Source: Micromonospora sp. ATA32
Lineage (GTDB): Bacteria; Actinomycetota; Actinomycetes; Mycobacteriales; Micromonosporaceae
Assembly (NCBI GenBank): GCA_016802835.1
Contig: JAEVHO010000005.1
Location: 1-35,822, forward strand
Reading direction: 5' to 3'
DNA length: 35,822 bases
Under the pieces are notes generated by a model. The model ran no database searches and had not been told where the DNA came from. It worked only from the letters and a program-made list of their open reading frames with translations. Both the position numbers and the translations under genes were made by a program. Position 1 is the first letter of the stretch; every line of letters begins with the position of its first letter. This document shows positions 5,503 through 28,923 of this stretch, in pieces.

Positions 5503-8500
5503 CTAGTCCTGTTCGTCAGGCTCGTCGGCATTGCGAGCAATCGCCACGATAGTCACGCCGTCCGGGAGGTCCATCAGCTTGACCCCCATTGTGTTCCGGT
5601 CACGCGTACGGCGTACAGGCTTCACCGGAGTCCGGATGACACCACCGTTGCTGGTGATCGCGAAGAGCTCGTCGTCCGGGTCGATCACCACAGCGCCGAC
5701 CAGACCACCCCGCCGCTCGGTGATCTTCGCAGTCAGCACACCCTTACCTCCCCGGCCCTGGACCGGGTATTCCTCGATCGGGGTACGTTTCGCGTATCCC
5801 CCGTTCGTCGCCACCAGCACGTCCAGCCCCTCCCGGACCACTTCCATGGCCAGCAGGACGTCGTCGTCGGTGAAGCGCATGCCGATCACGCCCGAGGTGG
5901 CCCGGCCCATCGGCCGCAGGGCCTCGTCGGTGGCGTTGAACCGGATCGCCTGCGCCTTCTTCGAGACCAGCAGCAGGTCGTCCTCCGGCGCCACGAGGGC
6001 AGCACCGACCAGCTCGTCCTCATCGCGCAGGTTGATCGCGATGATGCCGCCGGACCGGTTGGAGTCGAACTCCTCAAGCCGCGTCTTCTTCACCAGGCCG
6101 TTTCTCGTGGCCAGTACCAGATAGGGAGCCACCTGGTAGTTCGGGATTTCGATGATCTGCGCGATCTGCTCGTCGGGTTGGAACGCGAGCAGATTGGCCA
6201 CGTGCTGGCCCTTGGCCACCCTACTGGCCTCCGGCAACTCGTACGCCTTCGCCCGGTAAACGCGGCCCTTGTTCGTGAGGAACAGGATCCAGTCGTGCGT
6301 GGAGCATACGAAGAAGTGGCTGACGATGTCGTCCTGCCGGAGGGTGGCGCCGCTGACGCCCTTGCCGCCCCGCCGCTGGGAGCGGTAGAGGTCGACCTTG
6401 GTCCGCTTGGCGTACCCGGTGCGGGTGATGGTGACGACCACGTCCTCGCGGGCGATCAGGTCCTCCATGGAGACCTCGCCGTCGAACGGCAGGATCTTCG
6501 TCCGCCGCTCGTCGCCCCACTTGGCGACGATCTCGCCGAGTTCCTCGGAGACGATCTTTCGCTGCCGCTCCGGCTTGGCGAGGATGTCCTTGAGGTCGGC
6601 GATCTCGATCTCGAGCTTGGTGAGGTCGTCCACGATCCGCTGCCGCTCCAGCGCGGCGAGCCGGCGCAGCTGCATGTCCAGGATCGCGGTCGCCTGGATC
6701 TCGTCGATCTCCAGCAGCCGGATCAGGCCCTGCCGGGCGTCCTCGACGGTGGGCGAACGCCGGATCAGCGCGATCACCTCGTCAAGGGCGTCCAGCGCCT
6801 TGGCCAGACCGCGCAGGATGTGCGCCCGCTCCTCGGCCTTGCGCAGCCGGAAGGCGGTCCGCCGGCGGATCACGTCGATCTGGTGCTCGACGTAGTAGCG
6901 GAGGAACTGGGCCAGGTTGAGCGTGCGCGGCACACCGTCGACGAGGGCCAGCATGTTGGCGCCGAAGGTCTCCTGGAGCTGGGTGTGCTTGTAGAGGTTG
7001 TTCAGCACCACCTTGGCGACCGCGTCGCGCTTGAGCACGAGCACGATCCGCATGCCGGTACGCCCGGAGGACTCGTCCCGGATGTCGGCGATGCCGGCGA
7101 GCTTGCCCTCCTTGATCAGCTCGGCGATCCGCTCGGCGAGGTTGTCCGGGTTGACCTGGTACGGCAGCTCGCTGACCACCAGGCAGGGGCGGCCCCGCTT
7201 GTCCTCCTCGACCTCGACCACGGCGCGCATCCGGATCGAGCCACGACCGGTGCGGTACGCGTCCTGGATCGCCATGGTGCCGACGATCAGACCGTGGGTG
7301 GGGAAGTCGGGGCCCTTGACGATCTCCAGCAGCGCGTCGAGGGTGGTGGCCTCGTCCTCCTCCGGGTGATCCAGGCACCACTGCACCGCCGCGCCGATCT
7401 CCCGCAGGTTGTGCGGTGGGATCTTGGTGGCCATGCCGACCGCGATGCCCTCGGAGCCGTTCACCAGGAGGTTGGGAATCCGGGACGGCAGGATGGTGGG
7501 CTCCTTGGCCCGGCCGTCGTAGTTGTCCTGGAGGTCGACGGTGTCCTCGTCGATGTCCCGCAGCATCTCCATGGCCAGCGGGTCGAGCTTGCACTCGGTG
7601 TTGTGGCTGACGAAGCCGTCGGAGACGAAAGAGTGGTCGTCGGTGTCCACCCGGATGCTGTAAACCGGCTGAACGCCCGCGTCGGCCACGCTGACGACCT
7701 CTGCGTAGTAGAACCGACCGTCCACCAGCGGCTCGACCACGTCGAGCACCTCGGGGTTGGTGATCCGGGCCGCGATCTCGTCGCGGTCCCGCTCCCAGCG
7801 CTCGATCCGGTCGACGTTGTGCCGGCGCAACCAGTCCCGCTCGGTCCACCGCGTCGCACCGTGCTCGCGGATGAAGTCGCCGACCAGCGGCACCTGGTCG
7901 CTGGAGAGCGCGGTGCTGCTCGCCGGGACCTGCGCGAGCTCCGACTCCAGCTTCGCCTGCTTGCGGCCGAGGAAGCCGACCTGCGCGGCGAAGATCCGCG
8001 CGTCGCGGCGGTTGGTCACCACGACCTTGATCTCGCCGTTGTCGTAGCGGCACTGCCTGCTGATCACACCGAACTCGAGCAGCAGCTGCTGGACCTCCCG
8101 GGCCAGGCGGTCGCTACGGGTCGAGTACGAAATCTGGATGGTGTTGCGCGGCAACAGCGATGAGGAGCCGTCGCCCTCGAAGAGCGCCTGGAGGAACGCC
8201 CGCTTGATGGCAGCCGGCCCCTGCCAGACGAACTCCGGCACGAACTTGGCCGCGCTCCGCACACCGACCATCTCGCCGAGCAGGCTCTTCCGCAACGCGG
8301 TGAGGTCCTGCACGTCGATCTCGTGCAGCATGCTGCCCGAGGCGATGACGCGCTGGCTGACGTGGCGGGGACCGCCCACGGCAAGGTCGTAGGCCGCCAG
8401 GACCCGGACGAAGAACTCCCGGTCGACGTTGTTGAAGCCGGCCCGTCCCTCGGACACCCAGCCCTCGCTGACGAACGCGCCGGCGAGCACCGCCGCCTCG

Positions 8501-9285
8501 ACGTGCTCCAGCATCGGGTAGCCGATCTCGTCCGGCACCGTGCGCTGAAGGACCACCCGGTCACCCGCGGAGACCTCGGCGAGCAGCTTCCAGAGGAGCG
8601 TGGGCACGCCAGCCACGTCCACCAGGCAAAGCACCGGGTGGTTGTGGGTGCCGCTCAGCTCGTACCCCTCGCGGGTGCGCAGCCGCAGGGTCGGGTGCTC
8701 GCCGGAGTGGAAGAACCTCGAGGCGCGGACCAGGTCGCCGTTGCGGTCGCGGACCTTGAGCTCGATGCCGGTCTCGCTGCTCGGCGCCGCGCCGGGCACG
8801 ACCTGGTCAATCCGAACGGAACCCTCGGCGGTACGGATCCGGACATCCCCGGTGAGGCAGTAGCGCATCGCCGCAGCCGGATCATTTCCCGGCGAGCCGA
8901 AGTTGCCGTTGCCGTCGACCAGCGGGTACCGCAGCGACCAGGGCTGCGCCATCCGGACCAGCGCGTCGTAGATCGCCGAGTCGCCGTGCGGGTGGAACTG
9001 ACCCATCACATCGCCGACGACCCGCGAGCACTTCACGTAGCCGCGGTCCGGGCGGTAGCCGGAGTCGAACATGGCGTAGAGAATCTTGCGGTGGACCGGC
9101 TTGAGCCCGTCCCGGACGTCCGGCAGCGCCCGCCCGACGATGACGCTCATCGCGTAGTCGAGGTAGGAGCGCTGCATCTCCACCTCGAGCCCGACCGGCT
9201 CGATCCGATCGTGCGCCACTACTGCGGCGACTGCGGTCTCGGGGACCTCGGGCTCACTCGGGGTGGACTCGGGAGTATCGGTCAC
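5503..9285 (-). CDS. gyrA: DNA gyrase subunit A precursor with in-frame intein
   Basis: A 1260-residue open frame: a normal 840-residue GyrA interrupted by a 420-residue intein. The N-extein holds the breakage-reunion domain ([32 protein letters not shown]) and ends at the catalytic Tyr142 in AAAMRY. The C-extein resumes with [13 protein letters not shown] and runs through the coiled coil to the beta-pinwheel domain with the GyrA box QRRGGKG. The subunit cuts and rejoins DNA in the A2B2 gyrase that adds negative supercoils. The quinolone-region positions are Ser103 and Asp107 (E. coli Ser83/Asp87), the sensitive type, unlike the Ala found in M. tuberculosis. The GTG start at 9285 has AAGG upstream. 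Without splicing the active-site region would be disrupted. Confidence 0.97.
7600..8859 (-). mobile_element. GyrA intein with LAGLIDADG homing endonuclease
   Basis: Residues 143-562 of the precursor (intein numbering 1-420). Cys1 begins block A (CLTGDVRI). Block B is THNH at 71-74. The first LAGLIDADG-type motif is [11 protein letters not shown] with acidic Glu132; the second is [11 protein letters not shown] with Asp230. Block F is [13 protein letters not shown], and the C-terminus is FVSHN with His419 and Asn420, followed by Thr as the +1 extein residue. All residues needed for Cys-type splicing appear present, as do both endonuclease acidic residues. Insertion directly after the catalytic Tyr is the known mycobacterial GyrA intein site. 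This element is full length, unlike the mini-intein of M. xenopi. Confidence 0.95.
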
Positions 9286-9321: not shown

Positions 9322-9373
9322 TGTGGATAACCGCTGTGGAAAGCGGCCAAGCTGTGGATAACTCTGTGGACCG
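9322..9373. promoter_or_regulatory. Cluster of four DnaA-box-like sites between gyrB and gyrA
   Basis: TGTGGATAA, the reverse complement of the consensus TTATCCACA, occurs at 9322-9330 and 9353-9361. Weaker copies are TGTGGAAAG at 9335-9343 and TGTGGACCG at 9365-9373. They all point the same way and fill the 130-bp gap upstream of the gyrA start. Binding by DnaA is inferred. Confidence 0.65.
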
Positions 9374-16219: not shown

Positions 16220-16405
16220 CAATGCCTCCGCGTCGACGTCAGCGACAACTCTCTCATGCCGACCGCTTCCTACCGTCCCGCCCGACCGTGCGGGTACCCA
16301 TCGCACCTTAGGGCGCGTGGGCATCGGCTGTGCGCCCGACCCCATGGATCTGTCGGTGCTGACGAGGTGTCCTCGGCAGCGTCCGGCCCGATCCACAGAA
16401 AGTCC

Positions 16406-16461
16406 AACGGTGATGATTGGTTTTTGTTCTCTTAGAAGAGATAACTCATCGTCTTCATCGC
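16406..16461. other. AT-rich stretch, candidate DNA unwinding element of oriC
   Basis: The only markedly AT-rich segment of the origin, holding GATTGGTTTTTGTTCTCTTA and AGAAGAGATAACTC. It lies on the dnaN side of the DnaA-box field, directly before the first boxes at 16474 and 16508, as expected for the site melted at initiation. Confidence 0.6.
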
Positions 16462-16585
16462 ACCTGTGCAAACTGTGGAGAACCGGCGTCAGCCCAGCTC
16501 AGACAGGTTATCCACCGGTGATTTCGCTGTGGAGAACCAGGGGTCCAACCCGTGTCCCAGTCCACAGGCACCGCCGCCCGCCGGG

Positions 16586-16626
16586 TTGTCCACCGTTGTC
16601 CACCGGTTGTCCACCGGTAATCCACC
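16586..16626 (+). repeat. Head-to-tail array of four DnaA boxes at helical-turn spacing
   Basis: TTGTCCACC at 16586, 16596 and 16607, and TAATCCACC at 16618, all in the same direction. Start-to-start distances are 10, 11 and 11 bp, which puts all boxes on one face of the helix. Confidence 0.85.
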
Positions 16627-16931
16627 GACTTTCTCCCCAGTCCTGTGGACGGCGCTGATCATGTTGACGACCGTCGTCCCCAGAACCTTCAACAGCTCGT
16701 ACACAGGTCGACCGTCGTCGGTGGACAAGGAAGACGCTGTCCCCAGGCGTCCACAGCGTCGTCCCCAGGGTTTGTCCACAACCTGTGGATAACCAGGCTC
16801 GGACGGACCGCGGTTTTCCACTGTCGGTGAATAACCGGATGTGGACAACGAGACAGGGATGGAGTGGGACACGCCTCGATCATGTGGCCTCGACCAGGTC
16901 GAGGCTCAACCCCCGGGCCTCCGGTGAGACG

Positions 16932-17001: not shown

Positions 17002-18920
17002 TCAGGTGTTCTGCTTGATCCGGTTGGTCAGTTCGGCGATCTGGTTGTAGAGCGAACGCCGTTCGGCCATCTGTTGACGGATCTTGCGGTCGGCGTGCAT
17101 CACCGTGGTGTGGTCCCGCCCACCGAACGCCTGCCCGATCCGGGGCAACGACAACTCGGTCAGCTCGCGGCACAGGTACATGGCCACCTGGCGGGCGTTG
17201 ACCAGCACCCGCGAGCGGGACTGGCCGCGCAGGTCCTCCAGGCTCACCCCGAAGTAGTCGGCGGTGGAGGCCATGATCTGGTCGGCGTTGATCTCCGGCC
17301 CGGCGCCGTCGGGCATGAAGTCCCGCAGCACCTCCTCGGCCAGCGACAGCTCGACGGTCGACCGGGTGAGGCTGGCGAACGCGGTGACCCTGATCAGCGC
17401 CCCCTCCAGCTCGCGGATCGAGTTCGACACCCGGGAGGCGATGAACTCCAGCACGTCCGGTGGGGCGTACATCCGCTCCTGCGCCGCCTTCTTCTGCAGG
17501 ATCGCGATCCGGGTCTCCAGGTCCGGCGGCTGGATGTCGGCGAGCAGCCCCCACTCGAACCGGGTCCGCATCCGGTCCTCCAGCGTCGCCAACTGCTTCG
17601 GCGACCGGTCCGAGGTGATCACGATCTGTTTGTTGGAGTTGTGCAGCGTGTTGAAGGTGTGGAAGAACTCCTCCTGGGTCCGCTCGCGGTTCTCCAGGAA
17701 CTGGATGTCGTCGATCAGCAGGATGTCGACGTCGCGGTAGCGCCGCTGGAACGCGCTGGTCTTGTCGTCCCGGAGCGAGTTGATGAAGTCGTTGGTGAAC
17801 TCCTCGGTCGAGACGTACCGCACCGACCGGGCGTTGCCGAGCGTCGTCGCATAGTGCCCGATCGCGTGCAGCAGGTGCGTCTTGCCCAGCCCGGAGCTGC
17901 CGTAGATGAAGAGCGGGTTGTACGCCTTCGCCGGCGACTCGGCCACCGCGACGGAGGCGGCGTGCGCGAACCGGTTCGACGAGCCGATGACGAACGTTTC
18001 GAACATGTACTTGGGGTTGAGCCGGTTGCCGCCGCTCTCGGCGCCGCCGGGCATCCGCCGGTCGTCCCGACCACCCGGGCGGTGATCCTGCCCACCGCGG
18101 CCCGGCCCGCTGTCCGTACCGCCGTCCCGGGACAACCCGCGTACGCCGTGCTGGGCGCGCGGTGGTCCGGCGTCCTCGCGGTACCGGGGCTCGAAGCCGC
18201 GGGTCTCCGGGGCGGCTTCCGGGTCGCGTCGGGCCCGCTCGTCGAAGCCCCGCCGTTCCGGCCCGGGCCGGGCGGCCCGCAGCGGCTCGGCGAAGGCGGC
18301 GCCGAACAACGTCTCCTGGCCGTCCCGGCTCGCCGGGATGAGCCCGGATCGGTGGCCGTCCGTGGACGGGGCGGGCTGGGACGGGGGGCGCGGACGCCTC
18401 GGCCGGCTGCGCCGGCTCCGGCGCCGGCCGGATAGCCCTGATCGGGGTAGCCATGGTCGGGGTAGCCCTGATCCGGAACGTTCTGGTCGGGGTAGTTCTG
18501 GTCGGGGTAGTTCTGGTCGGGGTAGTTCTGGTCCGGGTACGCCGCGGACTCCTGCGGGCGCCCGCCGTCGCCGTCGAGCAGCTGGGGAGCACCCTCGAAG
18601 TCGGGCGGCCCGTCCGGGGCGCTGCGGTACACGGTGCCGGCCGGCCGGTCGGCGGCGTTTTCGGCCACCCGCACGGTCACCGCCACCTGTATCGGGCGGC
18701 CGAGCCGTCGCGTGAGCGCCTCGGTGATGGCCGGCCGCAGGCGGGACTCGATCACGTCCCGGGTGAAGGCGTCCGGGACGGAGAGCAGCGCGGTGTCCTC
18801 CACGATCGCGCGCAGCCGGGTGAGACGGAGGTAGGCGCGCTGCTGCGCGGAGACGATCTCGTCGGCCAGCTCATCCGTCGTCGCCGTCCACACCGCGGCA
18901 AGGTCGATCGTTCCGGCCAC
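17002..18920 (-). CDS. dnaA: Chromosomal replication initiator DnaA, with two frame breaks in domain II
   Basis: Domain I is read from the GTG at 18920 ([20 protein letters not shown]). Domain II is long, Pro/Gln-rich and has a YPDQN repeat. Domains III and IV are intact: [20 protein letters not shown], Walker [13 protein letters not shown], Walker [12 protein letters not shown], and the DNA-binding signature [11 protein letters not shown]. The frame changes twice in domain II, near 18421-18431 (into [15 protein letters not shown]) and at the G6 run 18383-18388 (into [20 protein letters not shown]). Restored length is about 638 residues. It binds DnaA boxes as ATP form to open oriC. Upstream, TTATCCACA at 19049-19057 suggests autoregulation. 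Confidence 0.95.
18441..18545 (-). repeat. 15-bp tandem repeats in dnaA encoding YPDQN
   Basis: Plus-strand units of the form GTTCTGGTCGGGGTA (about 18480-18540) give three or four exact YPDQN copies, flanked by diverged copies ([15 protein letters not shown]). Near-identity at DNA level indicates recent slippage. They lie in the flexible linker between domains I and III. Confidence 0.9.
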
Positions 18921-23329: not shown

Positions 23330-24700
23330 GTGCATGACGACGGCAGGTACGACGATCCACGGGTGACCGGGCCGGGAGGGCAGTCCTCCGGAGCCGACCC
23401 TGTTTCACGTGAAACCGACCATCCGGGGCGGCCCGTCGGCGAGGCGTCCCGGGACCCTTCCACCCGTCCATCGGACGCCGAGCCGGTGGCACGACAGGAC
23501 GACCCGTCGACCGTCAACCGTCCGGTCAAGCCGGAGGTCGCCGGCCTCGCGGCGGCGGCGGCCGGCCGGACGGACAGCCGCCGCCGGCGCCGTCGAACGC
23601 CGCCGGCCAGCGGCCGACGCCGGTGCCGCGGCAACGCCGCGCGTCGGCCCGATTCGAACCACCGCCCGTCGCCGCCGTACCGCAGCAGCCGGCGCCGGAC
23701 GCGGTTCCCGACGCGCCATCAAGGCGGCCGTGCCCCTCGACACGCCTACGGCACCGGCCGAGGCTATCGGCACCGATCACGCCGGTGCCGCGTACGTTCA
23801 CGTGAAACCCCGACGCGCGAAGAGGATGACCCACCGTTGGCTATGGAGGCGATGCGCGCCGTGCAGATCCTGAATCCGAGTGGCGAGGTGACCATGCCTA
23901 GGCCCGATCGGACCCGGGTGATGTGCGTCGCGAACCAGAAGGGCGGCGTGGGCAAGACCACGACCACAGTCAACCTTGCGGTGGCGCTCGCCCTGCACGG
24001 CAACCGGGTGCTCGTGGTCGACCTGGACCCGCAGGGCAACGCCTCGACCGGGCTCAACGTCCCGCACCACACCGGGGTGCCGGACGTCTACGACTGCCTG
24101 ATCGACAGCGTTCCGCTGGCGGAGGTCGCCCAGGAGGTAGACGGCATCCCCAACCTGTGGTGCGTACCGGCCACGATCGACCTGGCCGGTGCCGAGATCG
24201 AGTTGGTGTCGGTGGTAGCCCGGGAGTCCCGGCTGTCCCGCGCGATCGAGGCATACCCCGGTCACTTCGACTACGTGTTCATCGACTGCCCGCCCTCGCT
24301 CGGCCTGCTGACCGTCAACGCGTTGGTGGCCGCGCAGGAGGTGCTCATCCCGATCCAGTGCGAGTACTACGCGCTGGAGGGGCTCAACCAGCTGATCAAC
24401 AACATCAACCTGGTCCGCCAGCACCTCAACCCGAAGCTCGAGGTCTCCACGATCCTGCTCACCATGTACGACCGGCGTACCCGGCTGGCCGACGCGGTGG
24501 AGCAGGACGTCCGGAACCACTTCGGCGACAAGGTGCTCCAGTCGGTGATTCCGCGCAACGTCAGGGTCTCCGAGGCGCCCAGCTACGGGCAGTCCGTGAT
24601 GACCTACGATCCCGGTTCACGGGGGGCGACGAGCTACTTCGAGGCCGCCCAGGAGATCGCCGAGCGCGGGGTCAAGGAGCCGGTGAGCCGGAATGCGTAG
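23330..24700 (+). CDS. parA: Chromosome partitioning ATPase ParA with long N-terminal extension
   Basis: The ATPase core (from about residue 190) has the deviant Walker A KGGVGKTTTTVNLA, VVDLDPQGNASTGLN and FIDCPPSLGLLTVNALVAAQ. With ParB-parS it moves the newly copied origins apart. The GTG at 23330 gives an extension of about 170 residues that contains a parS site translated as VSRET. Inside it the likely frame jumps three times with net zero effect: near 23575-23600, near 23715 (into RAIKAAVPLDTPTAPAEAIG) and near 23815 (back into EEDDPPLAMEAMRAV). A shorter start at 23843 (MEAMRAVQILNPSGEVTMPR) is the conservative alternative. Only the core is certain. Confidence 0.93.
   Translation: MHDDGRYDDPRVTGPGGQSSGADPVSRETDHPGRPVGEASRDPSTRPSDAEPVARQDDPSTVNRPVKPEVAGLAAAAAGRTDSRRRRRRTPPASGRRRCRGNAARRPDSNHRPSPPYRSSRRRTRFPTRHQGGRAPRHAYGTGRGYRHRSRRCRVRSRETPTREEDDPPLAMEAMRAVQILNPSGEVTMPRPDRTRVMCVANQKGGVGKTTTTVNLAVALALHGNRVLVVDLDPQGNASTGLNVPHHTGVPDVYDCLIDSVPLAEVAQEVDGIPNLWCVPATIDLAGAEIELVSVVARESRLSRAIEAYPGHFDYVFIDCPPSLGLLTVNALVAAQEVLIPIQCEYYALEGLNQLINNINLVRQHLNPKLEVSTILLTMYDRRTRLADAVEQDVRNHFGDKVLQSVIPRNVRVSEAPSYGQSVMTYDPGSRGATSYFEAAQEIAERGVKEPVSRNA
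23401..23416. other. parS site 1
   Basis: TGTTTCACGTGAAACC, one mismatch from the consensus TGTTTCACGTGAAACA. It lies within the 5' part of parA. Confidence 0.93.
23794..23809. other. parS site 2 (degenerate)
   Basis: ACGTTCACGTGAAACC keeps the CACGTG core and the right arm but has a damaged left arm. It lies in the parA N-terminal extension. Confidence 0.65.
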
Positions 24701-24727: not shown

Positions 24728-25747
24728 ATGAAGAACCGTCCTCGTGGCGGTCTGGGTCGAGGCCTCGGAGCGCTCATCCCGACCGGGCCGGTGCAGGACG
24801 CCGAAACGGTGACGGCGGAGTCGGAGGCCGGCCACGTCGAGGCCGGCCCGCTGGCCGAGGCGACATCGCCCTCACCGGTGGCCGCCGCGCCAGCGGTCGC
24901 CCCGGAGCAACAGCTCAGCCCGGTACCGGGGGCACGGTTCGCGGAGATACCGGTCGACGCGATCATGCCGAACCCGAAGCAGCCCCGTCAGGTCTTCGAC
25001 GAGGATGCGCTGGAGGAGCTGAAGACCTCAATCCAGGAGGTCGGCTTCCTCCAGCCCATCGTCGTACGCCAGCTGGACGGCGAGAAGTACGAACTGGTGA
25101 TGGGCGAGCGGCGGTGGCGCGCGGCCCAGGCGGTCGGACGGGAGAACATCCCGGCGATCGTGCGGGACACCAGGGACGACGCGATGCTCCGGGACGCCCT
25201 CCTGGAAAACATCCACCGGGCGAACCTCAACCCGCTGGAAGAGGCCGCCGCGTACCAGCAGTTGCTGGAGGAGTTCGGCGCCACCCACGAAGAACTGGCC
25301 CGCCGGATCGGACGCAGCCGCCCGCAGATCTCGAACACCATCCGGCTGCTCAATCTCCCTCCGCAGGTGCAGCGGCGGGTCGCCGCCGGCGTGCTCTCCG
25401 CCGGCCACGCCCGGGCGCTGCTCAGCCTCGAAGAGTCGGAGGCCCAGGAACAGCTCGCCCTCCGGATCGTCGCCGAGGGCCTCTCGGTCCGGGCCACGGA
25501 GGAGATCGTCGCCGTGGCGCTCGCCGACGGCCCGGCGAATAGCCCGGCGGCGAAACGCCGGTCCAAGCCGCACGCCCCGGCTCTGACCGACCTGGCCGAC
25601 CGTCTCTCGGACCGGTTCGACACCAGGGTGAAGGTCGACATCGGCCGGAGCAAGGGCAAGATCACCATTGAGTTCGCCACGGTCGACGACCTTGAGCGGA
25701 TCGTGGGCATCATCGGTGTCGGCCAGGAAGAGGAACCGGAGGGCTGA
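24728..25747 (+). CDS. parB: Chromosome partitioning protein ParB
   Basis: 339 residues, intact. The N-terminal [13 protein letters not shown] is the ParA-contact patch. The CTP-binding ParB/Srx domain (about 75-170) has [31 protein letters not shown] and [14 protein letters not shown]. The helix-turn-helix (about 175-240) shows [20 protein letters not shown] followed by [11 protein letters not shown]. The C-terminal dimer domain ends the protein. It loads at parS, slides as a CTP clamp and recruits ParA and SMC. The ATG at 24728 has GGGAGGCGTCGC upstream, 27 nt after parA. The seven nearby parS sites are its targets. Confidence 0.96.
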
Positions 25748-25763
25748 ACCTCCCGCTCCGACA

Positions 25764-25797
25764 CCGGCCGCGTAGCTCGTGAGAGCGACGCGGCCGG
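25764..25797 (+). terminator. Terminator hairpin of parB
   Basis: CCGGCCGCGT (25764-25773) pairs with ACGCGGCCGG (25788-25797). The loop holds a nested GCTC/GAGC stem. It starts 16 bp after the parB stop. Confidence 0.75.
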
Positions 25798-25844
25798 TTC
25801 GCGTCTCACCCGCTGTGGCGGTCAACCCGGCGACTTGGCGGTGC

Positions 25845-25860
25845 CGTTTCACGTGAAACA
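25845..25860. other. parS site 3
   Basis: CGTTTCACGTGAAACA, one mismatch from consensus, about 100 bp after parB. Confidence 0.93.
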
Positions 25861-26053
25861 CGGCAGGGGTTCGAACCGCCGCTCGGGCGGCCCGACAGAG
25901 CGGCCCGCGACGGTCGGTCCGACGGTGCACCCGGCGCGGCTCCTGGCCGACTGGCTCCCTGGAAACGGGGAACGCCGGTGCTCCCGAGCTCCTGACCGTG
26001 GCCGGCATTGCTCCCGCCAGCGGTGGCGCGTCTCGGCGAGCCAAGCCGCCGAA

Positions 26054-26120
26054 GGCGGGTGGGCCGAGGCGGTCCGGTGGGCCGAGGCGGTCGGGTGGGC
26101 CCAGGTGTCCGGGTGGGTGG
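26054..26120 (+). repeat. Imperfect 18-bp tandem repeats
   Basis: Three neighbouring copies of a unit like GCGGTCCGGTGGGCCGAG, followed by GGTGTCCGGGTGGGTGGCC. They are G-rich on the plus strand and non-coding. Confidence 0.6.
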
Positions 26121-26363
26121 CCGGTGGTCGTGTCCCGCGGGGGCTCGGGCGTTGCCGGGTGGATGGGTTCTGGCGCGCTTGCCGCTGACCGGGGGCGGCC
26201 CAGTGGCGCCGGAGGGGCCAGGTCGCGCTGTCGCCCCACGGTGCAGGCGCACGTGCCGTGCGAGGTAGGCCAGCCGGGTACGGGCAGGGCTGGCTCCGCG
26301 TAGCGGAACCCGGGGCCGAGTACGGGTTGCTTGGTGTGGGCCCGGCCGTTGGTGGCTCCTGCT

Positions 26364-26399
26364 TCCCCGGTCCCCGGTCCCCGGTCCCCGGTCCCCGGT
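26364..26399 (-). repeat. 7-bp tandem repeat forming a G4-type tract on the minus strand
   Basis: Five copies of CCCCGGT on the plus strand. On the minus strand this gives five runs of GGGG separated by ACC, a textbook G-quadruplex pattern with 3-nt loops. Confidence 0.85.
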
Positions 26400-26595
26400 A
26401 AATGTCATTGCATGCGGGTCCCAGCTCTTGGCTTTCGGCTCCTGGCTTCGCTGCCCATCCCTCTGCCCGTGGAGGCTGTCGGCCCTGAGTCTCGACCCCG
26501 GCGGTTGGCCTCGGCACCTCGCGGCTCCCGGCTTCAGGATCTCGGCTTTAGCTGGCTGACGTTGCGCCTGGGCTTCACGGCTGCTGCCAACGTGT

Positions 26596-26611
26596 TGTTC
26601 CACGTGAAACG
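26596..26611. other. parS site 4
   Basis: TGTTCCACGTGAAACG, two mismatches, CACGTG core intact. Confidence 0.85.
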
Positions 26612-26657
26612 GCGCAGGTGTCCGCCGCCGCCTAGGAGCTGACGAGGTCTCGGAAGT

Positions 26658-26673
26658 GGTTCCACGTGAAACG
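26658..26673. other. parS site 5
   Basis: GGTTCCACGTGAAACG, three mismatches, core intact, 62 bp after site 4. The two form a close pair. Confidence 0.8.
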
Positions 26674-26872
26674 GAACTGCGGACTCTGGATCGAGGTGCA
26701 GCCACCCGATCCTCGAGGGAGGTGGACCCTCGATTGATCCGGTCGGTCCGTCTCGGTGTCGCTCTCCTGCCGAGGCGCGGCCGCCGAGAGGATGGCGTCG
26801 ATCCGGTCGTGCGCGCTTTGTTCAAAGCCCTCCTCAGGTGCCGGGGCGTGCAGCGCAGACCAGCGGGCCCCA

Positions 26873-26971
26873 GCGCCCCGCGACCCAGTGCCCCGCGACC
26901 CGACGCCCCGCGACCCGACGCCGACGCCGTGCGACCCGACGCCGTGCGACCCGACGGCCTGCGATCCAGCG
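26873..26971 (+). repeat. Tandem repeat of about 15 bp (CGCGACCCGACGCC type)
   Basis: Five to six copies of a unit reading CGCGACCCGACGCC or GTGCGACCCGACGCC, with a short GCCGAC insertion in the middle. Non-coding; G-rich on the minus strand. Confidence 0.75.
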
Positions 26972-27580
26972 TCTGCCCGCGTTGCGCCTTCCAGGTTCAG
27001 CGCGCGGGGGACCCACGCGCCATGCAAAGGGTGAACGGCAAGTTGCGCTGCGCTCGAAGGCCGAGCAGGACCGCAGAGGCGGAGATCCCGATGCCGGGCA
27101 GGCTCGGACGCGCCGCGCAGATTCAGGGATCACGGAGGCTGACAGCACGGAGGCGCGCAGCGGATGCGCATTGTCGAGCCGTTCCTGCCGCTCCGCCGAG
27201 GATGGCCAGGACGAGTCTGCGGAGCCCGCAGGTCTCCATCGGGTCGGCCAATCCCAACGCGTCCAGGCGACCGCGGACCCACCAGCCACCTGTCCCGCAG
27301 AGGTAGCTGAACGCCCCGCTGCCGGCTCGGACCGCCACCGGGCCCCCGGGCTATGCCGTGACCAGTGGACGTCCTTCAGGGGCCAATCAGAGGGCGGCCA
27401 GGCTGGTTCGGGACACAAGGATGGCCGACACCGATCACGGAGCCTTCCTGAGCGCCGATCGGGGTGGCTGAATCAGGCTCACAATCATTCACCCGCCCCC
27501 CACTCTTGCCGCCCAGAGCGAGCGAAACGCAGCACGAACGGAGTGTGTGAAGCGTGCCGATCATGCCGGCACCCCAAGCG

Positions 27581-27596
27581 TGTTCCACGTGAAACC
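27581..27596. other. parS site 6
   Basis: TGTTCCACGTGAAACC, two mismatches, core intact. Confidence 0.88.
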
Positions 27597-27745
27597 ACCG
27601 TCGCTCGCCCTCCGGTCCGCCCATCCCCCCTGGCGCAGAAGTCACCCCCTGCCGACGAGCTTCGAAGCGAGGATTCGGTCGTTAGGAAGACGGGCACCAC
27701 CGATCCTGGAACGGCCGCGCAGGTCGGTGCTCTTCAGGCCGTAGT

Positions 27746-27858
27746 TATCCACAGCGGTTTTCCACAGGTGGGGCCGTTTCACGTGAAACCCCGCGTAAAA
27801 CGGGGTGCGTGCCTGTGGATGACGGGGTGTGTTGGTGATCTCATCCGCCTGTGGACAG
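27746..27858. promoter_or_regulatory. Composite of DnaA boxes, parS and a hairpin
   Basis: Perfect DnaA box TTATCCACA 27746-27754, TTTTCCACA 27759-27767, parS 27776-27791, a CCCCG/CGGGG hairpin at 27790-27806, then TGTGGATGA 27815-27823 and TGTGGACAG 27850-27858. Confidence 0.6.
27776..27791. other. parS site 7
   Basis: CGTTTCACGTGAAACC, two mismatches in the outermost bases only. It is flanked by DnaA-box-like sequences. Confidence 0.92.
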
Positions 27859-27998
27859 CCTCGGAGGGTGACCGTTCGGCGCCGTACCGGCGGGCACCGG
27901 AGTGGGCGGTGGGCGCGACGACGGCAGATGGGTCGGCGGCGTCCGCCAGTCTCGATCTACCGCACGTTTCGGGTAGGGACAGCCGTCTCCGACTCGGT

Positions 27999-28004
27999 TA
28001 GGGT
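27999..28004 (+). promoter_or_regulatory. Candidate -10 element for a leaderless transcript
   Basis: TAGGGT fits the actinobacterial TANNNT -10. The GTG start codon lies 7 nt after it, where transcription should begin, and no ribosome site is visible. The -35 region is not convincing. Confidence 0.45.
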
Positions 28005-28011
28005 CAGCGTC

Positions 28012-28923
28012 GTGCACGACACCCCTCCTTCAGTCCCGGATTTCACCCAGTGGCCGTCCTTTCCCTTCGAAGGCGCCCTTCGCGTCAAACAGCTCGATGA
28101 TCCGGTCTCGGTCGAACCGCCCCGCAAGGGCGAGGGGCACCGGGAATGCACCGCCTGCAACGCCCCCGACGACGCCTACATCTGGGTGGGTGAGCGGTGG
28201 CGGGTACGCGCCATGGACCGGCCCACCGGCCTGCCGATGGTGCTGATCCTGGAATCCCGGTCACACCTCGACCTCGGCGACCTGCCCAACCTGCTCGCCG
28301 CCGAGCTGGGGGTGATGACGGTACGGCTGGAGCGGGCGATCCGATCGCTGGACGGCGTCGCGCGGGTGCACGTCAACCGTTGGGGCGACGGCTCCGCGCA
28401 CCTGCACATGTGGTTCCTAGCCCGCCCGTACGGCCGACTCCAGTTGCGCGGGACGTTCCTGTCACTCTGGGACTCGATCCTGCCGCCCATCTCCGAGTCT
28501 CAGTGGCGGGAGAACCTGGCCCTGGTCGCCGCCTGGCTCGCCGAGTTCGGCGGACGGCCGCTGGCCGAGCCGCCGCGGATCCAGTGGCAGGCACCGTCCA
28601 GCATCGCCGCGCAGTCATCCGGGCAGCGGGCCGCAGCGGAGGCGGAGGCGGAGGCGGTTTCGGTGATCGAAGCGGCCGAGGAGATCCCCGAGCCCGCGGA
28701 GCCTGCGGAAGCCGGCGCCGACGCTCAGGGCAGCGCCGACGCCGACGCCGAGAGCGGGGCAGACGCTGAGGGCGACACCGACGCCGAAGGCGACACCGAC
28801 ACCGACGCTGAAGGCGCCATCGACGCTGAAGGCGACGCCGACGCCGACACCGAGGGCAGCGCCGACACCGACGCTGAGGACGGCCCTGTCGGCGCAGCGA
28901 ACGGAAACCGCGCGAGGCAATAG
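28012..28923 (+). CDS. HIT-like superfamily protein with acidic repeat tail
   Basis: About 303 residues from the GTG at 28012. Residues 40-190 look like a HIT/GalT-like fold: a CTAC pair near the N-terminus, WVGERWRVRAMDRP, LESRSHLDLGDLPNLLAAEL, and a HIT-type end motif SAHLHMWFLARPYG. The usual H-x-H-x-H triad is incomplete (the third His is Trp), so nucleotide hydrolase or transferase activity is uncertain. The last 85 residues are a disordered Ala/Asp/Glu/Gly/Thr tail with repeats such as AEGDTDAEGDTDTDAEG. It stands alone after the parS region. The family call is inference from pattern. Confidence 0.7.
   Translation: MHDTPPSVPDFTQWPSFPFEGALRVKQLDDPVSVEPPRKGEGHRECTACNAPDDAYIWVGERWRVRAMDRPTGLPMVLILESRSHLDLGDLPNLLAAELGVMTVRLERAIRSLDGVARVHVNRWGDGSAHLHMWFLARPYGRLQLRGTFLSLWDSILPPISESQWRENLALVAAWLAEFGGRPLAEPPRIQWQAPSSIAAQSSGQRAAAEAEAEAVSVIEAAEEIPEPAEPAEAGADAQGSADADAESGADAEGDTDAEGDTDTDAEGAIDAEGDADADTEGSADTDAEDGPVGAANGNRARQ
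28725..28890 (+). repeat. Degenerate tandem repeat coding for the acidic tail
   Basis: Repeated GACGCTGAAGGCGAC and GCCGACACC units encode (D/A)-(A/T)-(E/D)-G blocks in the C-terminal tail of the HIT-like protein. Confidence 0.75.

Follow-up and report, generated by a model that had tools for sequence, protein, structure and literature searches.

The window, by which we mean the whole 35,822-nucleotide stretch of Micromonospora sp. ATA32 DNA that was analysed, covers an origin region with the gene order gyrA, gyrB, recF, dnaN, oriC, dnaA, rnpA/yidD, yidC, jag, rsmG, parA, parB and a gene encoding a conserved protein, here called gene G, which served as the anchor of our locus survey. The gene G family gave no Pfam match at E values up to 5 and no PDB match at E values up to 1; its HLHMW stretch is reminiscent of HIT enzymes. 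In the 2.26 kb between parB and gene G the tested reading frames had no Pfam match, and here lies the element of interest, referred to as the module, which spans 27745-27858 (114 bp) and consists of four predicted DnaA boxes around a perfect parS. The features of the region are as follows.

16474-16848, no strand assigned: oriC, a DnaA-box cluster with dnaN on one side and dnaA on the other
23330-24700, plus strand: parA
24728-25747, plus strand: parB
23402, 25846, 26597 and 26659: further parS-like sites (at most one mismatch)
27582-27595, no strand assigned: neighbouring parS, one mismatch, no DnaA box within 100 bp
27745-27753, plus strand: DnaA box 1, TTATCCACA, perfect
27758-27766, plus strand: DnaA box 2, TTTTCCACA, which fits TTNTCCACA, 13 bp after box 1
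27776-27789, no strand assigned: parS of the module, GTTTCACGTGAAAC, 14 of 14 bases, with parA and parB within 5 kb
27793-27797, plus strand: CGCGT, just 3' of the module parS and frequent across genera
27814-27822, minus strand: DnaA box 3, TCATCCACA, one mismatch, inverted
27850-27858, minus strand: DnaA box 4, CTGTCCACA, one mismatch, inverted
27972-28004, plus strand: promoter-like element of gene G, GGTAGGGACA ... TTAGGGT, separate from the module
28012-28923, plus strand: gene G

DnaA binds TTNTCCACA and ParB binds parS. A sequence-only reading of this DNA had reported DnaA boxes and a parS within 113 bp, about 11 kb from oriC; re-reading and scanning reproduced these sites with coordinates good to 1 bp, and the distance to oriC was measured as 10.9 kb. 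Allowing one mismatch at most, the window has six parS-like sites, of which only the one at 27776 has DnaA boxes within 100 bp. Box 3 starts 38 bp past the start of this parS and 69 bp past the start of box 1, while the parS dyad lies about two helical turns from box 2. CGCGT occupies positions 2-6 after parS at 70-94% in a comparison of 17 other genera with one locus apiece, and is 1 bp out of register in the window. Box 4 is common within Micromonospora but is not conserved in other genera. The small hairpin that the same reading had included (CCCCG...CGGGG, directly 3' of parS) is indeed present in the window; it is not conserved, however, since stems of at least 5 bp were seen within the 24 bases 3' of parS in 11% of the 81 loci surveyed (the window and the best 80 of 268 relatives) versus 8.6% of shuffles, and it was rejected as a functional part because its frequency does not rise above that of shuffled sequence. 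An RNA element was considered as well, but 25600-28100 gave no Rfam match at E values up to 1.

All four box-like sites (at most one mismatch) of the parB-to-gene-G stretch lie inside the 114 bp, and in 2000 mononucleotide shuffles of that stretch at most two came together. In the organism's own genome assembly (6.14 Mb), TTNTCCACA occurs 48 times versus 22 times for the backward-read pattern. The module is thus a group of several 9-mers in a short non-coding stretch beyond chance expectation, as in DnaA-box clusters. By description only, it can be likened to D78, a non-coding chromosomal cluster of this kind, from which it differs in the parS embedded in its array.

The 81 loci were obtained by a gene G search of a genome collection, which confirmed 268 relatives; the best 80 of these are all Micromonosporaceae (Micromonospora, two Verrucosispora, three Salinispora and one further family member). 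The core of box 1, box 2 and parS was found in the same arrangement upstream of gene G in all 81 loci (window and best 80 of 268), where boxes and parS are strongly conserved and the flanks weakly. The other parS sites of these loci served as a control, restricted to those more than 220 bp from the module (38 sites within 220 bp were left out): 277 of the 288 had no TCCACA and 11 had one within 90 bp, none had two box cores within that distance, and the module parS has three to six. Within 500 bp upstream of gene G, the triad of boxes 1 to 3 was found in its geometry 61 times (58 of the 81 loci, window and best 80 of 268), compared with once elsewhere in 1.58 Mb. It is not strictly required, since among 83 rows of the genus Micromonospora it is present in 57 and box 3 is absent from 26, each of which carries box 4. 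In the three Salinispora modules (L079, L082, L084) parS is embedded in a longer palindrome, GCGCTGTTTCACGTGAAACAGCGC, with paired DnaA boxes on either side.

The spacing of the array is nearly fixed. In the triads, box 2 starts 13 bp and box 3 68-71 bp after the start of box 1, and parS starts at 30-32 bp, moving in step with box 3. Among the 95 triads with parS inside, the parS-to-box-3 distance is 38 bp in 89, 37 bp in three and 39 bp in three. In four genera the central parS has decayed (5-8 mismatches) and the box geometry is kept (g2, g18, g25, g31), and two others keep it in part (g3, g15). At these loci the distance between boxes 2 and 3 remains 56-57 bp, mostly with box 1 located 13 bp upstream, sometimes with two mismatches. 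In most rows of the genera with parS outside, the closest parS was found at a distance of 20 to about 100 bp, and in L130 (g15) and L128 (g18) at about 280 bp. With its geometry persisting after decay of the central parS, the DnaA array appears to be the core of the module, and the decayed loci are the strongest hint that the predicted array, and not parS alone, is under selection.

The meeting of initiator and partition sites that the sequence-only reading had singled out as unusual is therefore a real co-occurrence, conserved, of near-fixed geometry and specific to one parS of several; titration, or a link between origin firing and ParB loading, which that reading had put forward, are candidate roles of the site. 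Could it be a neutral leftover, or a chance overlap of two unrelated kinds of site that are both common near origins? The parS sites are dense in the 2.2-kb stretch, which speaks for such an origin, but the conservation of the module contradicts it: many genera keep the module with near-fixed spacing, the flanks carry little information, and the cluster was never reached in 2000 shuffles. The clustering of boxes and parS is not due to chance, and we regard this explanation as close to negligible.

Across the family, TCCACA at 2-30 bp from an exact parS was found in 234 of 300 Micromonosporaceae genomes, representing 28 of 44 genera, and the backward control gave no matches. The region upstream of gene G was read in 178 sequences, namely the 81 loci, 49 pattern-negative and 48 pattern-positive genomes, which are not all independent (at least L116 and L059, and L117 and L049, seem to be the same contigs). 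Gene G was missing from four of the 66 pattern-negative genomes; 12 of the other 62 were left out (11 of g11, one of g4), and L194 was dropped, its gene G match being a distant copy with 48% identity. All five pattern-negative Micromonospora genomes carry the core of box 1, box 2 and parS, although their parS deviates from the consensus at one or two bases.

The genera were then classed by our joint reading of several surveys, most of them being sampled by one to few genomes. Eighteen of the 44 genera have parS inside the boxes (g1, g6, g8, g10, g20, g21, g22, g23, g24, g28, g29, g32, g33, g34, g36, g37, g43, g44; g33 and g43 each also include one incomplete pattern-negative genome without gene G). 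In six, parS lies outside an array that retains its geometry or two of its boxes (g2, g3, g15, g18, g25, g31), and six show other arrangements of boxes and parS (g9, g16, g17, g19, g39, g42). The module is absent from 12 of the 44 (g4, g7, g11, g12, g13, g14, g26, g27, g35, g38, g40, g41), where lone TCCACA-parS matches in G004, G083, G014, G040 and G148 were not counted as modules, and two (g5, g30), in which gene G was not found, were left unclassed. Loss of the boxes with retention of parS, which the sequence-only reading had named as the outcome that would speak against it, was not seen in crown genera; several of these show the reverse, with box spacing kept, the inner parS decayed and another parS outside. 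The basal genera g4, g7, g11, g13, g26 and g38, however, have parS near gene G and no box array. In a midpoint-rooted gene G tree of 73 rows, a branch with support 79/33, recovered in 78% of bootstrap trees, has the rows with no module to one side, and every module bearer included falls into a single crown group (99/95), in which g27 alone lacks the module; the tree leaves out L178 (g26) and the short-stretch genera g9, g14, g17, g19, g33, g37, g38, g39 and g42. This distribution fits, with weak support, a single gain with parS inside that may have been followed by several displacements of parS.

Of 391 genomes sampled from the class outside the family, 22 have TCCACA at 2-30 bp from an exact parS, and the 13-bp box pair of the module was not seen among the matches listed for these 22; a general actinobacterial feature was rejected on these grounds. 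The 13-bp pair pattern itself occurs in 17 of 388 genomes, three of them Micromonospora, and no parS was found within 700 bp on either side in the 7 of the 14 outside loci that were examined. Eleven of the 22 outside genomes belong to one genus (g90 of family f29, 19 sampled genomes). Ten of its 11 loci (L152-L162) carry two tandem boxes 20-21 bp apart next to parS, and in four of five translated loci (L152, L153, L159, L161) the site falls in the 5' portion of a frame that occupies the place of parA; these frames were named by eye, in L161 also by a ParB-like frame downstream, and L154 yielded no frame in this position on translation. The association of DnaA boxes and parS in g90 looks independent of the module. 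A tandem DnaA-box pair followed by CTGTGTGTT is conserved in several genera of family f19, including L265, where the pair adjoins reading frames that we take to be NADH-dehydrogenase-like.

The module is close to the origin wherever this was measured. In 24 of 24 genomes from 17 genera, the dnaA locus and gene G or the module are separated by 7.7-15.9 kb; four of these distances (G001, G023, G064, G119) assume a circular chromosome, and that of G064 (12.3 kb) was taken by hand. The query piece (17123-17872, minus strand) is a shadow frame of dnaA, and its matches still mark dnaA. A second origin was considered and rejected, since no AT-rich unwinding element was found at the module, where the GC content is 61-69% compared with the dip to 48% at oriC (16400-16499).

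The position of the module upstream of gene G wherever it was found, in a survey that was itself anchored on gene G, raises the possibility of transcription control, in which DnaA and/or ParB would regulate gene G by way of the module as an upstream operator. DnaA also acts as a transcription factor. However, a conserved promoter-like element belonging to gene G itself lies at -42 to -8, in a nearly constant place before the GTG start and with most columns at 85-100% (81 loci, window and best 80 of 268), for which reason the module was rejected as its core promoter. The near-constant placement suggests that the gene G message is likely leaderless. Moreover, the module does not keep the fixed distance and orientation to the promoter that an operator would be expected to have: it is inverted relative to gene G in L073 and in g2, g28 and g29, and shifted in other loci (farther from gene G in L052, L065, L066, L072 and L077). 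Genera without the module still keep gene G. Control of gene G thus appears quite unlikely.

Our preferred reading, held tentatively and at somewhat less than even chances, is that the module would be a DnaA-holding site near the origin, comparable to datA, that is joined to a ParB loading site and provides a negative feedback tuned by ParB. DnaA would assemble into a defined complex by binding the two tandem boxes (13 bp apart) and the inverted third (about 69 bp from the first), and ParB would bind parS, usually inside the array, and load from there. Located about 8-16 kb from dnaA, the module would be duplicated almost at once after origin firing; DnaA held or inactivated there would then exert negative feedback on initiation, and ParB occupancy might tune the DnaA complex in place of the IHF of datA. 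This reading is favoured by the core present in all 81 loci (window and best 80 of 268) with two box cores within 90 bp at none of the 288 other parS sites, by the 37-39 bp kept between parS and box 3 in 95 of 95 triads with parS inside, by the box geometry persisting after decay of the central parS, by the freedom of the module to be inverted or moved relative to gene G, by the proximity to dnaA in 24 of 24 genomes and by the lack of an AT-rich unwinding element. On the other hand, an array of three or four boxes is small for titration if only their number counts, 12 of the 44 sampled genera lack the module, and box 3 is replaced by box 4 in 26 of the 83 Micromonospora rows.

Precedents for such a site come from several bacteria. 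In excerpts of two articles, DnaA-box clusters of S. coelicolor and B. subtilis are reported to repress untimely initiation, datA is described as needing an IHF site flanked by boxes at a set spacing, and datA and DARS are said to act via set box geometry together with helper proteins (PMC5742627, PMC4585315). As in E. coli datA, boxes of the module flank the site of another DNA-binding protein at constrained spacing, the second site being parS where datA has that of IHF; the module also differs in being close to oriC. A DARS-like element, in which the triad would reactivate ADP-DnaA, is suggested by box 3 being opposed to boxes 1 and 2, since box I is opposed to II and III in the DARS core (PMC5742627, in part). 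The three boxes with one opposed resemble the core of E. coli DARS1 and DARS2 by description; the opposed box of the module stands about 56 bp away, usually across parS, and the module is origin-proximal, whereas E. coli DARS2 moved near oriC disturbs initiation timing (PMC5742627, in part). We consider a DARS-like role very unlikely.

The main rival to DnaA feedback, doubtful but well ahead of the control of gene G, is a licensing of segregation of the Caulobacter type, in which DnaA beside parS would aid the release or movement of ParB-parS or limit sliding of the ParB clamp. In Caulobacter crescentus the parS region is bound by DnaA, and DnaA levels too low to fire replication still move it (Mera et al., 2014, as reported in excerpts of PMC6399470). 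This chromosomal centromere near the origin resembles the module in having DnaA sites beside parS; it belongs to another phylum, however, whereas the module is a tandem-plus-inverted array of near-fixed spacing at one parS of several, known from sequence alone. Licensing of segregation would further account for the parS inside the boxes or within about 100 bp of them in most module lineages, which would be needless for a pure DnaA sink; this closeness fits the segregation reading equally well. Rearranged genera retain boxes beside parS, and g90 has its box pair next to parS in another family. Against it, only one of several parS sites has boxes, so that most ParB loading sites are independent of the module, and the box geometry is kept where the central parS has decayed, with the nearest parS about 280 bp off in L130 and L128. 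In Vibrio cholerae, rctA/parS2 of chromosome II likewise has initiator and ParB sites side by side, although the initiator is RctB rather than DnaA and the chromosome a secondary one (PMC6399470, in excerpts).

DnaA feedback, which we place first among these explanations, may be extended to a partition-gated DnaA switch: a datA-like site with a ParB clamp replacing IHF, by which the partition complex would set the active DnaA available for the next initiation in Micromonosporaceae. A comparable box pair and parS may have arisen independently in g90. This extension is speculative and rather unlikely as a whole.

No description of a DnaA/parS module in Micromonosporaceae was found among the open-licence literature matches listed, and in the matching passages of a Micromonospora genome paper (PMC4182475) dnaA serves only to place oriC and the match to 'parS' stems from parsimony. 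Initiator sites at a centromere and DnaA-box clusters near the origin are of a known kind; what appears to be new is the composite layout with its near-fixed spacing, kept widely across the family. Such fixed-layout predicted DnaA and ParB sites across genera suggest that chromosome copying and sorting are coupled there. The coupling of initiation to origin segregation in bacteria is an open question; in a review of actinobacterial development the timing link in sporulating streptomycetes was described as not understood, with no published actinobacterial ParA-DnaA interaction as of 2013 (PMC4255298, in part). The module is compact (about 115 bp), its DnaA and ParB sites can be mutated separately, and natural variants exist in which parS lies within the array, lies outside it or has disappeared from its centre, as do genera that lack the module; the coupling thereby becomes directly testable in actinomycetes.

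Further observations concern the other genes of the window. The dnaA gene (17002-18920, minus strand) has an apparent frameshift in this draft, either an assembly error or genuine: a weak match to the DnaA N-terminal domain lies in 17715-18920, and the AAA+ and C-terminal domains lie in another frame at 17002-18309. The gyrA frame (5503-9285, minus strand) matches LAGLIDADG_3 and also gives an intein-splicing hit that is weak and below the cutoff; it thus appears to hold an intein. Directly upstream of gyrA, in the gyrB-gyrA gap, three tandem DnaA boxes (9322-9361, minus strand) read TTATCCACA, CTTTCCACA and TTATCCACA at spacings of 18 and 13 bp, through which gyrase could possibly be under DnaA control.
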